A stretch of DNA of 64,000 nucleotides from assembly GCF_947494015.1 (NCBI RefSeq), contig NZ_CANLTL010000008.1, forward strand, positions 1 to 64,000, written 5' to 3'. The translations under genes were made by a program, and so were the position numbers. Source of the DNA: an uncultured Cellulomonas sp. GTDB taxonomy: Bacteria; Actinomycetota; Actinomycetes; Actinomycetales; Cellulomonadaceae. The notes below the pieces were generated by a model. It saw only the letters and a list, made by a program, of their open reading frames with translations. It was not told the DNA's origin and did not search any database. Shown here piece after piece: positions 1,565-6,689 of this stretch; the stretch's first letter is position 1; the number at the start of each line of letters is the position of its first letter.

Positions 1565-2581
1565 TCAGGAGCCGGAGGCGGACGTGTAGGTGTGCTCGGC
1601 ACCGAGCACCTCGATCGGGGCGTTCGCGCCGGCCGGCGGGACGTAGAAGACGACGACGTCGGTGTAGCCGAGCACCAGCGTGTTGCGCAGCACCGCCCCG
1701 GCCGGGATGGCGCCACCGGAGACGGCGGCGATCTCGGGTGTGGCCGTGAGCGACGCGTCACTCAGCGTGAAGGTCGACGTCGTCGTCATCCCGCCCACGA
1801 CGATGGCCCCGCCGTCGGCGGTGCGCAGCGCGACCAGCTGGTCGGGCACGGCCGCGTAGGTCTCGGTGAAGGTCCCGGTGCCCTGGGCGATGCCCTCCGA
1901 CGTGGTACGGCCGGTCGCGATCCGCTCCCGGTAGGGGTCGGGGTTCGCGAAGGACGCCGCGAACGCCGAGCCGTCGCCGCTCAGGAGCACGTCGGCGTAC
2001 TGGGCGACGACGTCGGCCGGCGTCGCGACGAGCCCGGCGGCGTCGGGGGCGAGCACCTCCGCACCGGCGGTCGGTGCCGCGATGGCCGGCATCTCGGCGC
2101 CCGGCAGCAGGCGCGCCCAGCCCCACAGCGTGTACGGCTCGCGGGGCGACTGCTGCTGGAGCACGAGCAGACGCGGGCTGGTGAGGTCCTCGGGCTGCTC
2201 GGTGACCACGAGCTGGGTGCGCGGCCAGGGCGTCGCGTTCGGGACGACCAGCGTCTGGGGCTGCACGGGCAGGGGCGTGACCGGCTGCGCCCCTGCCGTC
2301 GCCGCGGCGACCGCGTACTCCGCGGCGCGCGACGTCAGGGCGGGCCCGCTGACCCGCGCGGACAGCTCCACGGTCGACAGCGCCGCGTCCCCGCTGGCGA
2401 GCACGTCACCGATGGCGGTGAGGATGCGGTCGGACTGCTCGAGCGTCGTGGCCGGTGGCGGCACGGCGAGGGGCGCCTGTGCCTGCGGCTGCGGCAGCTC
2501 GGCTGCGCACCCGGTGAGTGCGAGGCCGGCGGTGAGCGCGAGCGCGACCCGGCCGAGCCGCGTCCGCTGGGCGGTGCGCAT
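1565..2581 (-). CDS. Putative lipoprotein of a coupled envelope trio
   Basis: The 338-residue protein starts with a basic n-region, a hydrophobic stretch and a lipobox L-T-G-C (Cys25), so it is probably a lipid-anchored secreted protein. The mature part is Ala/Val/Thr-rich with no motif I recognise; the second half (about 180-330) looks like a beta-rich globular domain. The ATG at 2581 is chosen because the signal peptide begins there and because it overlaps the upstream gene's stop as TGATG, implying translational coupling. It may work at the cell surface with the two-TM protein encoded just upstream (inference). Function unknown. Confidence 0.75.
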   Translation of the reverse strand: MRTAQRTRLGRVALALTAGLALTGCAAELPQPQAQAPLAVPPPATTLEQSDRILTAIGDVLASGDAALSTVELSARVSGPALTSRAAEYAVAAATAGAQPVTPLPVQPQTLVVPNATPWPRTQLVVTEQPEDLTSPRLLVLQQQSPREPYTLWGWARLLPGAEMPAIAAPTAGAEVLAPDAAGLVATPADVVAQYADVLLSGDGSAFAASFANPDPYRERIATGRTTSEGIAQGTGTFTETYAAVPDQLVALRTADGGAIVVGGMTTTSTFTLSDASLTATPEIAAVSGGAIPAGAVLRNTLVLGYTDVVVFYVPPAGANAPIEVLGAEHTYTSASGS

Positions 2582-3984
2582 CAGTGGTCCTCTCCGTCGG
2601 TGCGGCCGTCGGCACGGGGCTCGGGCTCGCGGGGTGGTGAGCCGGCGCCGGGGAAGCCCCACGCGCGTCGCCAGGCGTCGGCACGGGAGCCACCGGCGGC
2701 CGGCGCCGGCGTCAGCCCGGTGTCCCCGGTCTCCCCGGTCTCCCCGTCGAGGCCGGTCACCGTCCCGGCGCCCGGGTCGCCGTCGAACGCATCAGCGCCG
2801 CTGTCGGGATCGTGGGCTCCGTCACCGGTGGACGCCGCCGCGTCCGGATCGGTCGCCGGCACGTCGGCAGGCGATGCCGGCCCGGGCGCCGGGGCGGCGC
2901 CGTCACGGCGGTCCGCAGCGGTGCCGGACGCCGACGCGTCCGTCGCCGCCACCGGTCGGGCCGCGGCAGGTGTGGTGCCGGCGACCTCGGCCGTCGGGCC
3001 GGTGGGCGCGTCGGCGTCCGACCCTGCAGGGGGCACGTCCGGCGTCACGCCCGCGTGCGGGTCCATGGCTGTGGCCCCGCCGGCGTGCGGCCGAGGGTCC
3101 ACGACCGCGGTCTCGCCCGTGCGCGGCGTCCACGGGCGCGGCGTCCGGGCGGCCTGACGCGCCGCGGCGGCGGCCGCTGCGGCAGCCGCTGCGGCTTCCC
3201 GTCGCTCGCGGCGGGTGCGCGACGCGCCGGGGTCCGCAGCGTCCCCTGCGCCGTCGGCGGCGACGACCGGGGTCGCTCCCGTGGTCACGGCCTGCCACTG
3301 CTCGGCGCGCGGCCCGCGGCTCGCGCGCACCGCGAGCAGCAGGGCGAGCAGCAGCAGCACGACGCCCCCCACGACGCCGGGGACCAGCCAGGGCGTCGTG
3401 ACCGTCCGGGGCCAGGACAGCTCGACGGTCGGCGGGCCGGCGCCCTCCCCCGCCGTGGCGACGAGCAGCGTCCAGCGGCCCTGCTGCGGCTCCCACACCA
3501 GCTCCGCCGATCCCTCGCCGCTGGCCTGCTCGACCCACAGGTCGCTGCCGTCCGGGTCCGGCGCGGGGGTGGCGGGCGCCGCCTCACCGTCGGGTGCCGC
3601 CTCCTCGGCTGGAGCGGCCTCACCCTCGGCGACCTCGGGGGCCGGCGCGGTCGAGGCGACGTCGTCGGTGGTGAAGGTGTGCCAGTCCTGCAGCCCGGTC
3701 ACGACGGTGTGCGCGTCCGTGCCCACCCACCCGTCGACGTCGGTGTCCCGACCGACCGCCAGGACGACCTTGGTGCCGTCGTCGGCGGTCGCCCGGACGC
3801 TGACCGGCGGGTCGCCCATCTCGAGCACGCCGGGCGCCGTCGTGAGCAGCGTGGTGCCGGCGGCGGCGGTGGCGGTCGCCGTGAGCGTGTCGTCGGCCCG
3901 CCAGGCGGTCGCAGAGGCGATGCCCAGGACGATCGCGGCCAGGCCGAGCACGCCCAGCACGGCGGCGATGAGTCGTTGCAGCAC
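2581..3984 (-). CDS. Two-TM membrane protein with long disordered tail
   Basis: 467 residues, GTG start preceded by GGAAGGG. A transmembrane helix at about 4-24 leads into an extracytoplasmic beta-rich domain (about 30-110 and 148-192) interrupted by an acidic Pro/Ala linker, then a second helix at 199-219 and a long cytoplasmic tail. The tail has an Arg/Glu-rich segment, a run of 12 alanines (264-275) and a low-complexity acidic Pro/Thr/Gly region. It is first in a three-gene unit whose next start overlaps its stop. No family recognised; the architecture suggests an envelope or signalling component. It diverges from the Scy/FilP-like gene. Confidence 0.75.
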   Translation of the reverse strand: MLQRLIAAVLGVLGLAAIVLGIASATAWRADDTLTATATAAAGTTLLTTAPGVLEMGDPPVSVRATADDGTKVVLAVGRDTDVDGWVGTDAHTVVTGLQDWHTFTTDDVASTAPAPEVAEGEAAPAEEAAPDGEAAPATPAPDPDGSDLWVEQASGEGSAELVWEPQQGRWTLLVATAGEGAGPPTVELSWPRTVTTPWLVPGVVGGVVLLLLALLLAVRASRGPRAEQWQAVTTGATPVVAADGAGDAADPGASRTRRERREAAAAAAAAAAAARQAARTPRPWTPRTGETAVVDPRPHAGGATAMDPHAGVTPDVPPAGSDADAPTGPTAEVAGTTPAAARPVAATDASASGTAADRRDGAAPAPGPASPADVPATDPDAAASTGDGAHDPDSGADAFDGDPGAGTVTGLDGETGETGDTGLTPAPAAGGSRADAWRRAWGFPGAGSPPREPEPRADGRTDGEDH

Positions 3985-4013
3985 GAACGAGCCCTTCCGG
4001 AAGGTGACGCCCC

Positions 4014-4019
4014 AGGATA
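4014..4019 (-). promoter_or_regulatory. Probable -10 of the envelope trio
   Basis: TATCCT on the minus strand, 29 bases before the GTG at 3984. This leaves a short leader that carries the GGAAGGG ribosome-binding site. No clear -35 is visible. Confidence 0.4.
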
Positions 4020-4215: not shown

Positions 4216-6240
4216 GTGCCCGACGACCGACCGACCTTCCCCGTGGTGAGCTTCCGCGGTTACGACCGGGGGCCGGTCGACGCGCGGCTGGCTGAGCTCG
4301 AGCAGGCGCTCGCCGACGCCCGGGGCCAGGTCGAGGCGTTGGACGCCAAGGTCATGCAGGCCAGCGGCGAGCTCTCGGACGCCCAGCTGCGGCTGCGGGA
4401 GGCGGAGCGGCCGACGTACTCGGGCCTGGGGGCGCGGGTCGAGCAGCTCCTGCGGACCGCCGAGGAGCAGTCCGCCGACGTCGTCGCACGCGCCAACGAG
4501 CAGGCGCGCGACGCGGTGTCCCGGGCCGACGTCGCCGCAGCCCAGCTCCGTGAGCGCGCCGAGCGGGAGGCGGCCGAGACCATCGCCGCGGCCCGCCGCG
4601 AGGTCGAGGAGATCCGGTCGGCGGGGCACGCCGACGCCGAGGGTGCGCTGGGCGACGCCGCCCGCCGTGCGGAGGAGCTGGTCGGCTCCGCCGAGCGCGA
4701 GGCCGCGCGCATCCACAGCGCCACCACCACCGAGGACGCGGAGCGCCGGGCCGGCCTCGAGCGCGAGATCGGCAGCACCCGGGCGACCGTGCAGCGTGAG
4801 CTCACCGAGCTGCGGGTGGCGACCGAGCAGGCGGCGGCCGAGGTGCGCGCGGCGGCCCAGGAGGACGCGGCCCAGTGGCGGTCGGCCGCTGAGCAGGAGG
4901 CGGCGGAGCTGCGCCGGACCGTCGACGCGGACACCTCGGAGCTGCGCACCCGGACCGAGCGCGAGCTCGCCGCCCTGCGCCAGGAGACGGAGCGGTACGT
5001 CGCCGGCCTCCGGTCCACGACGGAGGCGGAGGTCGCCGAGCTGCGCCAGCGGGTCGAGACGGAGGTCGAGACGGCCCGGTCCCAGGGTCTCGCGCACGTC
5101 GAGGCGGTGCGGACCGCCGCCGAGCGGGAGGCGACCACCCTGCGGCAGCGTGCCGCGGCGGAGTCGGCGGCGGTGCGCACGGAGGCCGAGCAGTACGCCG
5201 CCGGGCTGCGCGCGGCGGCCGACCGGGACACCGCCGAGCAGCGGTCCGGCGTCGACCGCGAGCTGGCCCACGCGCGCGAGACGGCCGAGCGTGAGACCGC
5301 AGACCTGCGGGCCGTGGCCGCCCTGGAGACGGGCGAGCAGCGCGCGGCCGCCGAGCGGGAGACCGCGGAGCAGCGCGAGGCGACCCGGCTGGACGTCGAG
5401 CGGATCAGGGCAGAGGCACAGCGTGCGGCGGCCGACCTCGTGCAGGCCGCCCAGGTGGAGGCGGACGCCCTGCTCGACGGCGCCCGCCGCGCCGTCGCGC
5501 AGGCCGAGGTCGACATCGCCGGGCTGCGGGAGGCGGCCGAGCGGGCCGACGCCGAGCGGCACGACGCCGCCCGCGAGCAGACGGCGCGGCTGGTCGCGGA
5601 GGCGGAGGCGCACGCGGCCGAGGCCGAGCAGCGGGTGGTCCGGGCCCTGGAGCAGGCCGAGCGGGTCCGTCGTGACTCCGACGCCCAGGCCCGCGACGTC
5701 CTCGCCGCCGCGCGGCACGACGCCGACCGCATCGTCACCGAGGCGCGCCAGGCGGCCGACCGCACGATCGGCGAGGCGACCACGACCGCGCACACGGCAC
5801 GGACCACGGCGCAGCGTCAGGTCGACGACCTCCACCGCCAGCGGGAGGCGATCGCCGCGTACCTCGACGAGCTGCGTTCGCTGCTCGGCGACGACCCGAC
5901 GCCGAGCCGTGCGGTGCTGGACCGCGCGAGCCAGGCGCAGGAGCGCTTCGCCACGGCCACCGGTGACGACGTCTCGGTGCCCATGGACGCCGACGAGGTC
6001 GATCGCCCGGGCACCGGCGCGGAAGGGGCGCAGGTCGCCGGCGACGGCGACGCGGCCGGCGCGCGCGTGTCGTCGTCCGACGAGCACTCCGCCGAGGGCG
6101 CCGACGCGACCGAGGGCGCCGACTCGGCCGACTCGGCCGACACCGCCGAGGTGCCGGTCACCGACGACGAGCCGTCCCGGGCCGAGCCGTCCGGCGACGC
6201 CCGTGACGCCGGACCCGAGGACGCGGCGACCCCGCGATGA
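4216..6240 (+). CDS. Scy/FilP/DivIVA-type coiled-coil cytoskeletal protein
   Basis: 674 residues, almost entirely helical Ala/Glu/Arg. The N-terminus carries a DivIVA-like signature F-R-G-Y-D-R (13-18), a short coil, then P-T-Y-S-G-L-G-A-R-V (66-75), a segment I associate with the Streptomyces Scy/FilP family. From Arg178 to Arg398, 21 arginines occur at exact 11-residue intervals, a strict hendecad array. The tail after about 590 is acidic and disordered. Family members build filament-like scaffolds at growth sites; here a pole, septum or shape role is the inference. GTG start with GGAGG upstream; the stop overlaps the next gene as ATGA. Confidence 0.8.
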   Translation: MPDDRPTFPVVSFRGYDRGPVDARLAELEQALADARGQVEALDAKVMQASGELSDAQLRLREAERPTYSGLGARVEQLLRTAEEQSADVVARANEQARDAVSRADVAAAQLRERAEREAAETIAAARREVEEIRSAGHADAEGALGDAARRAEELVGSAEREAARIHSATTTEDAERRAGLEREIGSTRATVQRELTELRVATEQAAAEVRAAAQEDAAQWRSAAEQEAAELRRTVDADTSELRTRTERELAALRQETERYVAGLRSTTEAEVAELRQRVETEVETARSQGLAHVEAVRTAAEREATTLRQRAAAESAAVRTEAEQYAAGLRAAADRDTAEQRSGVDRELAHARETAERETADLRAVAALETGEQRAAAERETAEQREATRLDVERIRAEAQRAAADLVQAAQVEADALLDGARRAVAQAEVDIAGLREAAERADAERHDAAREQTARLVAEAEAHAAEAEQRVVRALEQAERVRRDSDAQARDVLAAARHDADRIVTEARQAADRTIGEATTTAHTARTTAQRQVDDLHRQREAIAAYLDELRSLLGDDPTPSRAVLDRASQAQERFATATGDDVSVPMDADEVDRPGTGAEGAQVAGDGDAAGARVSSSDEHSAEGADATEGADSADSADTAEVPVTDDEPSRAEPSGDARDAGPEDAATPR

Positions 6241-6689
6241 GCGACGCCGGTGCCGCCACGCCCGCACCCGGGGACGACCCGGCATCCTGGCGCGCGCAGC
6301 GTCACGAGGCCGCGGACGTGCACGCCGAGGCGCTCGAGCGACGCCGGCAGTCCGAGACGGCCCAGGCGCGCACCCTGCTGGACGAGTTCGTCGAGCAGGC
6401 CGCCGCCCGGGGCCTGAGGCCCACCGCGCTGGCCGCCCGCAGCTACGACGGGCGCTCGCGGTACCGCACGCCGCTGCGGGGCTGGTACCTGCGGCGCAAC
6501 GAGAGCGTGGCCGTCGCGACCGACGGGCAGTTCTACGTGCTGACCGTCCCGGCAAGCCTGCGGGCGCGCTTCGCGGGCGTGTCCCCCGCGGCCAGCGACC
6601 CGCCTCTCGTCCTGGGCAAGGGCGCCCGCGACGGCGAGTCCATCGACCTCGCCGACGCGCTCGCGCGGGTCCTGTCGGGCGGCGCCTGA
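6237..6689 (+). CDS. Hypothetical partner of the coiled-coil protein
   Basis: 150 residues, translationally coupled to the coiled-coil gene (ATGA overlap). The first 60 residues are charged and probably helical. The remainder is a compact domain with aromatic and basic residues (S-Y-D-G-R-S-R-Y-R-T and G-W-Y-L-R-R) followed by strand-like V-A-V-A-T-D-G-Q-F-Y-V-L. No signal peptide or transmembrane segment. Function unknown; coupling suggests it binds or regulates the filament protein. Confidence 0.7.
   Translation: MSDAGAATPAPGDDPASWRAQRHEAADVHAEALERRRQSETAQARTLLDEFVEQAAARGLRPTALAARSYDGRSRYRTPLRGWYLRRNESVAVATDGQFYVLTVPASLRARFAGVSPAASDPPLVLGKGARDGESIDLADALARVLSGGA

Follow-up and report, generated by a model that had tools for sequence, protein, structure and literature searches.

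The window analysed here is a stretch of 64,000 nucleotides from an uncultured Cellulomonas sp., and it begins at position 1 of its contig. At 4216..6240 on the forward strand it carries the gene for a FilP/Scy-group protein of 674 amino acids (P0001), which has a GTG start and a GC3 of 0.96. Homologues of this rod protein are present in 144 of the 150 genomes of the same bacterial family, and a scan of named genomes identifies the family as the Cellulomonadaceae (Cellulomonas, Actinotalea, Cellulosimicrobium, Sanguibacter and others). The scan consists of the best 80 of 268 relatives, from which very near records may be left out, and the nearest named relative among these is Cellulomonas aerilata, with 76% identity over the head and stalk.

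All parts of the protein are encoded on the forward strand. It begins with a DivIVA-like head (residues 1-67, 4216..4416), made up of an RGYD motif and a short heptad coil, and continues with a conserved hendecad stalk (residues 68-177, 4417..4746) that lacks the arginine ladder, has a hydrophobic period of 3.665 and contains many columns that are invariant in 18 relatives. The arginine-hendecad array itself has 21 units (residues 178-408, 4747..5439); the arginine occupies hendecad position e and a typical unit reads R-x-x-[A/T]-E-x-[E/Y]-[A/T/V]-x-x-L. The array is followed by a C-terminal helical rod (residues 409-560, 5440..5895), with a hydrophobic period of 3.625, and by an acidic, probably disordered tail (residues 561-674, 5896..6237) with a net charge of -20, in which a helix at 565-583 is followed by residues with a pLDDT mostly below 50. 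An AlphaFold2 model of the monomer predicts helices at 70-312 and 343-557 and a mostly disordered tail. The full-length model has low confidence (mean pLDDT 69.6, pTM 0.35) and was used for helix extent only; we would not take its break in the helix at 311-345 as real, and the part of PMC11676326 available to us warns of coiled-coil models that are spuriously bent.

The stop codon of the rod gene overlaps the start of the next gene (ATGA), which encodes a conserved protein of 150 amino acids (6237..6689, forward strand). This protein is present in 143 of the 150 family genomes and in 95 of 198 genomes of the order, and its gene adjoins the rod gene in many Cellulomonadaceae. Elsewhere the two genes adjoin by coordinates in single genomes of families f9 (genome G310), f12 (G160) and f13 (G161), and they lie within 0.7 kb of each other in one of f3 (G198). 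Among the matches listed, the smaller gene lies away from the rod gene in members of genera g3, g9, g18 and g21, and the protein occurs without a rod match in f11 genomes, e.g., G159, G192 and G207. Its AlphaFold model is confident (pLDDT 91.8) and consists of a long helix and a small beta domain; a comparison with PDB folds gave no convincing match (best E 2.2) and a search of Pfam and NCBIfam gave none at the curated cut-offs. The original prediction named this protein as one candidate partner of the array, and it is a possible partner of the rod because its start overlaps the rod-gene stop and it stays adjacent in many relatives.

The rod protein was predicted to be Scy/FilP-like and this has stood up: as far as sequence comparison can place it, the protein belongs to the FilP/Scy group by its profile homology, its heptad coil and its hendecad rod. 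The head of the window protein reads FPVVSFRGYDRGPVD and the consensus of 18 relatives is FPVVMRGYDRxQVD. Compared with the motif GY[DN]xx[QE]V[DN], the window protein has R-G-Y-D and V-D, but a Pro at the [QE] place; the RGYDRxQVD of the consensus fits the strict pattern. The heptad coil after the motif has a hydrophobic peak at 3.505 (residues 21-63), although its power is only 3.4 on 43 residues. The profile of the 18 relatives matches a GpsB structure at positions 7-58 (E 0.0041), a match accompanied by prefoldin matches (E 0.019 and 0.074) that probably reflect coiled-coil chance. DivIVA/Wag31 and GpsB resemble the protein in the type of N-terminal domain. However, the window genome carries a separate DivIVA-domain protein on contig C9, and membership in DivIVA proper was rejected because the window protein falls below the cut-offs of PF05103 (10.8 bits vs. 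28, E 0.48), TIGR03544 (12.1 vs. 22, E 0.12) and NF050102, the DivIVA/Wag31 model (22.3 vs. 260). A TIGR03544 search of the protein's own genome had five other matches, and the rod gene was not among them. Membership in Scy proper was rejected in the same way (21 bits against a cut-off of 1040 for NF041483), and NF041483 had no match in the window protein's own genome at E 0.001.

Streptomyces FilP is found by the head and stalk profile of the window family (A1), which detects one ORF in each of 15 genomes with an above-cut-off Scy (taken as Streptomyces; among the matches listed), with E values of 8e-22 to 1e-19. In those checked, e.g., G386, the ORF lies directly after Scy by coordinates. 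A motif-filter extraction recovered FilP from nine of the 15 Scy loci, three proteins from f35 and no Scy; the Scy and f38 proteins were extracted separately. In the nine extracted FilP copies, seven of eight places are basic in an 11-step register at 78-155; unlike the window protein, Streptomyces FilP extends only about 300 amino acids from the RGYD motif, has no long array and has a period of 3.64 in the one examined. Scy is likewise a long hendecad-rich rod of the same group, with basic 11-step runs of 5-10 in the 15 Scy proteins, but it differs in its hydrophobic period, which is 51/14 in the one examined. A short basic 11-step register is common to the group, and the long array is a variant.

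According to the text of PMC9858780 available to us (Martinez-Goikoetxea & Lupas 2023), FilP occurs mainly in Micrococcales, Micromonosporales and Pseudonocardiales. The FilP/Scy group, as described in that portion, shares with the window family the DivIVA-like motif, the N-terminal heptad coil, the hendecad rod, the Ala-rich core and a widely varying length; the window family differs from it in having a fixed-register arginine array (21-26 units, 30 in one protein), a tyrosine ladder and a frequent gap at unit 12. Arginine periodicity is not mentioned in the Results and other passages covered, where the only 'arginine' of the main text is that of the RGYD motif, and no description of an arginine hendecad ladder was found in the published literature, as judged by titles and the opening parts of abstracts among the matches listed. 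The window protein is a real, conserved variant of a known bacterial scaffold rod, and what is new here is the Tyr at position k of fixed units, together with the gap in the ladder at unit 12 in most relatives.

The arginines were first noticed at residues 178, 189, 200 and onward to 398, and the count is exact: there are 21, unbroken, with a period of 11 over 221 residues, the codon of R178 starting at 4747 and that of R398 ending at 5409, as the original prediction had it. When all residues were scanned at every other period between 3 and 59, the best run was at most 7, except for a run of 11 at period 22, which is a multiple of the same series. In 5000 shuffles of residues 178-408, the longest 11-step arginine runs were 1-7. 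A six-frame scan of the window (417 stop-to-stop stretches of at least 80 amino acids) gave runs of 21, 20, 9, 9, 9, 8 and lower, of which the run of 20 is the antisense reading of the rod gene itself, produced because CG is its own complement. The scan and the shuffles rule out an artefact of reading frame or composition. The runs of 8-9 near 34.9-36.7 kb lie against ordinary genes, and a tandem repeat search there found none. The antisense open frame that mirrors the ladder in 20 steps is 515 amino acids long (4260-5807, reverse strand) and is a trap for gene callers. The 21 units of the window gene have a mean nucleotide identity of 54% (52% at third positions, 88% for the best pair) and the ladder arginines are encoded by CGG, CGC or AGG; a recent origin as a DNA repeat thus seems unlikely. 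The unbroken run of 21 is not a family rule, as the rung at unit 12 is often another residue in relatives.

Streptomyces Scy reportedly has a 51-residue repeat of hendecads and heptads, set out in a structural paper of 2010, and the original prediction was of a hendecad array that lacks this phase. Fourier analysis agrees with it: in residues 178-408 the hydrophobic period is 3.665 and the basic period 3.670, i.e., 11/3, and the hydrophobic peak of 3.665 is shared by residues 68-177, so that both stretches form a long hendecad rod with a small core. In the one Scy examined, the hydrophobic peak is at 3.640 (51/14), the hendecads being broken by heptads, and the power is 117.6 at 51/14 vs. 6.6 at 11/3. 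The window array has powers of 6.0 at 11/3 vs. 3.8 at 51/14, which is a poor separation over 231 residues; an f9 array of 376 residues is well separated (9.8 vs. 0.8). However, because the arginine register is exact in 11-residue steps over 221 residues, there is no room for an inserted heptad, and this register together with the 11/3 spectrum rules out a Scy 51-mer in disguise. The stalk gives the stronger hydrophobic signal (power 11.5 over 110 residues, compared to 6.0 over 231 in the array), and so a coiled coil is less certain in the array.

The original prediction laid itself open to two objections, namely that homologues might lack the arginine phase or might align with the 51-mer pattern of Scy. 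Neither holds, since the 11-residue phase of the arginines is conserved in homologues, and the window array follows the 11/3 period with no Scy 51-mer phase. In 49 of 52 proteins the best basic segment starts at residue 177/178, in two others at 184 and in the last at 199, and the arrays have 21-30 units in 28 proteins, 13-21 in ten and 5-6 in 14; these counts are whole units by construction. Cellulomonadaceae arrays extend from 5-6 to 26 units, with 30 in one protein. Counting the best 80 of the 268 named loci gave 21-26 units in 66, 16 in one and 5-6 in 13, the last being from Cellulosimicrobium, Luteimicrobium, Paraoerskovia and one record labelled Sphaerisporangium; L253, labelled Cellulosimicrobium, has 24. 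In at least five proteins (including L243, L259 and L270) there are no aromatic units in this count or the start is a default one, the marker having been missed. Of 34 proteins from the order's other families, eight reach 13 units or more, eight have 7-12 and 18 have at most six. Long arrays outside the family are found in f9 (31-40 units, with 29/31 to 33/40 of the rungs basic), f20 (15) and f19 (16). On a tree, the origins of the long arrays need four changes, although the starred branches force only one and several branches are long; recurrent expansion of long arrays is likely from this pattern.

Is the arginine held in place, or is it simply copied? At position e it is kept more often than other arginines of the array in every set compared: 0.983 vs. 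0.615 in the first eight units of 60 long proteins (no e filter), 0.929 vs. 0.597 over 24 units of 69 proteins (unit indels not corrected), 0.978 vs. 0.691 in the first five units of 71 proteins (short forms included) and 0.965 vs. 0.754 in a filtered set of 53. The unfiltered comparisons draw on 132 pooled proteins, with near-copies dropped and 11 that have no start marker left out; some organisms stood in the pool under two locus ids before near-copy removal. In the sets without an e filter, about half of the kept arginines have the same codon in both classes (0.49-0.59; 0.494 at e and 0.549 elsewhere in the 60-protein set). Across 28 long proteins x 21 units, none of the 11 columns varies as little as that of the arginine, which has an entropy of 0.50 bits compared to 1.68 for d, 1.82 for h, 1.85 for k, 2.17 for a and 2.10-2.98 for the others. 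Across species (21 proteins), the same unit is 0.57 identical vs. 0.34 for different units, and 18 of the 21 units match themselves best. The array is old, most of its units have their own identity and the arginine is held by selection. Lys replaces Arg in some members, which indicates that the charge matters.

These results bear on a passive explanation, in which the ladder is a functionless by-product of tandem duplication of a 33-base unit. Array lengths do differ, a tandem repeat finder reports periods of 33 and 66 bases, and the best unit pair of the window gene reaches the 88% DNA identity given above. In addition, the tyrosine rungs described below shift by exactly one unit in a few proteins (4, 7, 11, 14, 18 vs. 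4, 7, 10, 13, 17), from which it follows that units are gained and lost whole. However, the units are old and individually conserved, the arginine persists although codons and other columns change, and its loss at e is rarer than elsewhere in the array. We regard a passive ladder as very improbable, and unit orthology, codon turnover and arginine retention rule out recent tandem duplication as the main account.

A second ladder accompanies the first. Glu or Asp predominates at position 7 of the unit (hendecad k), except that Tyr stands there at units 4, 7, 10, 13 and 17 (21 proteins), which are 33, 33, 33 and 44 residues apart. The window protein keeps only two of these rungs, Tyr261 at unit 7 (4996..4998) and Tyr327 at unit 13 (5194..5196), both on the forward strand. 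Among long proteins taken with no filter, 4-7-10-13-17 is the commonest aromatic set (47 proteins), followed by 4-7-13-17 (11), and the first 21 units contain 521 aromatics, of which k accounts for 409, c for 76 and the other positions for 36. The filtered set of 53 is what was left, after near-copies were removed, of 73 proteins in which at least 20 of 24 e residues are basic and k is aromatic or His at units 4, 13 and 17. Tyr is found there at unit 4 in 53, unit 7 in 39, unit 10 in 34, unit 13 in 53 and unit 17 in 51, but the filter presets Tyr, Phe, Trp or His at units 4, 13 and 17 and favours Arg-rich arrays, and the window protein is excluded. In the same set, 29 proteins have Gln at e of unit 12 and eight have Arg; the window protein has Arg.

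The residues at k differ among the stretches compared across the f-families and Scy, which were picked for their basic register. In the long Cellulomonadaceae arrays k is 69% acidic and 22% aromatic (together 91%), in f20 it is 47% Glu and 47% aromatic (94% acidic or aromatic) and in f9 it is 66% Tyr/Trp and 23% acidic (together 89%). It is acidic in 81% of f19 and 84% of f38 units, and in 74% in the short arrays of f3, f13, f15 and f18. In the 11-step basic windows of Scy, where the register is unchecked, about one third of the k places are Glu or Asp (24% Glu, 8% Asp). As the acidity of k differs between Scy, short arrays and long arrays, the preference is not uniform in the group. The f9 rods L141, L142, L160 and L161 have 31-40 units, with k mostly Tyr/Trp and d often Thr; their unit type, R-x-x-A-D-x-Y-A-x-x-T, is an Arg-Tyr ladder in a far-expanded array.

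The array has 37 Arg and 49 Asp/Glu, and with a net charge of -12 a bare positive face is unlikely. The suggestion in the original prediction that the arginines may offer such a face to membrane or DNA is therefore not supported, as the array is net negative and each arginine is set between the acidic positions k and i. A related possibility is an amphipathic helix like the apolipoprotein 11-mers, with rows of arginines binding lipid head groups, DNA or teichoic acid. The Pfam Apolipoprotein model matches residues 173-336 (E 1.1e-10) and apolipoprotein A-I chains in the PDB also match (E 4e-4), but the score for PF01442 is 41.9 bits against a gathering cut-off of 90. In class A helices, which bind lipid, both flanks of the nonpolar face are basic. 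In the array the nonpolar arc (a, d and h) is narrow and weak, one flank is basic and the k flank is 69% acidic. We find a surface-binding helix of this general kind improbable, the negative net charge also counting against it, and apolipoprotein-like lipid binding itself was set aside because of the Pfam cut-off and the charge layout.

Could the rod be a single alpha-helix, a charged ER-type rod that needs no partner? Each Arg e has a residue at +4 in the same helix, position i, that is Asp or Glu in 73% of the long-array units, and the core positions except d are mostly Ala or Thr, the two being common at a and h. However, d is 69% Leu and 89% nonpolar, h is 76% and a 66% nonpolar, and charge at a, d and h is at most 1%. 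The positions at -4 and -3 from the arginine are a (0% acidic) and b (7%), and hence Glu(i)-Arg(i+4) pairs are missing. As the hydrophobic and arginine periods also coincide at 11/3, a helix without a partner has in our view only a small chance of being correct.

The best reading, to which we would give an even chance, is that Arg e pairs with Glu or Tyr k across a straight parallel dimer as an inter-helix zipper. Unit positions 8, 11 and 4 were assigned to a, d and h, following the scheme given in the consulted portion of PMC9858780. The arginine at e then lies 65 degrees to one side of the core centre, and k lies 65 degrees to the other. The dimer is assumed, the structure having been predicted for the monomer alone. 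In a coarse dimer geometry, e would lie beside d', and k of residue i would point towards e' of residue i+5, with a k-e' distance of 9.2 A between pseudo-side-chains at radii chosen by the analyst. Both an acidic and an aromatic k suit Arg.

From this we infer the following dimer geometry and strut role. The protein would be a FilP-like cytoskeletal rod whose DivIVA-like head, judging from its homology, dimerises it in parallel. Two strands would form the strut, a hendecad coiled coil that is almost straight and has a small core of Ala, Thr and Leu, and the acidic tail would trail behind it. In each unit, Arg at e would flank the core on one side, and k (Glu/Asp, or Tyr at set units) on the other, such that in a parallel, in-register dimer the arginine faces the k of its partner five residues earlier, just as e faces g' in a heptad. 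Its aliphatic part would pack over Leu d', and it could make a second contact within the helix to Glu i (+4). Where the hydrophobic core is weak, the ladder would set how the helices pair, their register and their straightness, and the gain or loss of units would alter the length of the strut and leave its phase undisturbed.

The pairing of k with e is not strict. After a k that is acidic, aromatic or His, the next e is basic in 1603 of 1692 cells, compared to 146 of 168 after any other k, a weak difference in cells that are not independent. At unit 2, k is Thr or Ala in 45 of the 53 filtered proteins, yet the next Arg is kept in 52, and at unit 16 k is Glu in only 23, yet again the next Arg is kept in 52; at both units k is frequently neither acidic nor aromatic. 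Conversely, e of unit 12 is the Gln noted above in 29, though k of unit 11 is Asp or Glu in 50.

The same two ladders could also act between dimers. In that case e and k of neighbouring dimers would interlock at 11-residue (~1.65 nm) steps to give FilP-like striated bundles, and the rows of Tyr would mark the stagger. Streptomyces FilP makes striated filaments and meshworks, according to the portion of PMC6599971 that was available, Tyr at k with the 33-residue spacing (units 4, 7, 10, 13, then 17) is widespread, and aromatics fill most k positions in f9. In the hendecad geometry, however, both positions border the core, and a dimer would partly bury them; we think lateral assembly unlikely.

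Returning to the zipper within the dimer, a more specific version would be an inter-helix code that is particular to hendecads in FilP-group rods. Arg e would face Glu or Tyr k', repeated up to about 40 times, the Tyr rungs at 33-residue steps would be ruler marks for stagger or for the docking of a partner, and cells would set strut length by whole units of 1.65 nm. We put this forward tentatively, as rather less than probable. Hendecads are called largely unexplored in the part of PMC9858780 at hand. Apart from a preference for small core residues, little is known of the sequence rules that hendecad coiled coils obey. The rods provide a large natural series, from five to about 40 units; one residue beside the core varies less than the core itself, and the opposite flank (k) is in most cases acidic or aromatic. 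Should the pairing prove true, it would supply a rule for straight coiled coils that can be tested, and a way to approach the question of how the pole and division scaffolds of actinobacteria set their length.

A few observations on the surroundings can be added. Synteny with methylmalonyl-CoA epimerase and crotonyl-CoA carboxylase genes, a trait ascribed only to Scy and some FilP clusters, was not found at the rod locus, as far upstream as the contig extends, and the Glyoxalase_4 matches of the window's own genome are on contig C14. Elsewhere in that genome, open frames at C3:317076 and C9:33863 have two DivI1A-domain matches each and resemble the PolyDIV type, and a DivIVA-like frame at C9:160841 has a single match. 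The neighbours of the rod gene include a thioredoxin-TPR gene. In a relative (G063, L310:2363-7664) an rRNA operon lies past this gene, and it may explain where the window contig begins. Two upstream frames on the reverse strand, 1565-2662 and 2581-4014, had no Pfam matches; by eye, one of them has a lipoprotein-like signal (LTGC) and the other two likely membrane helices and a tail rich in Pro, Ala and Asp.
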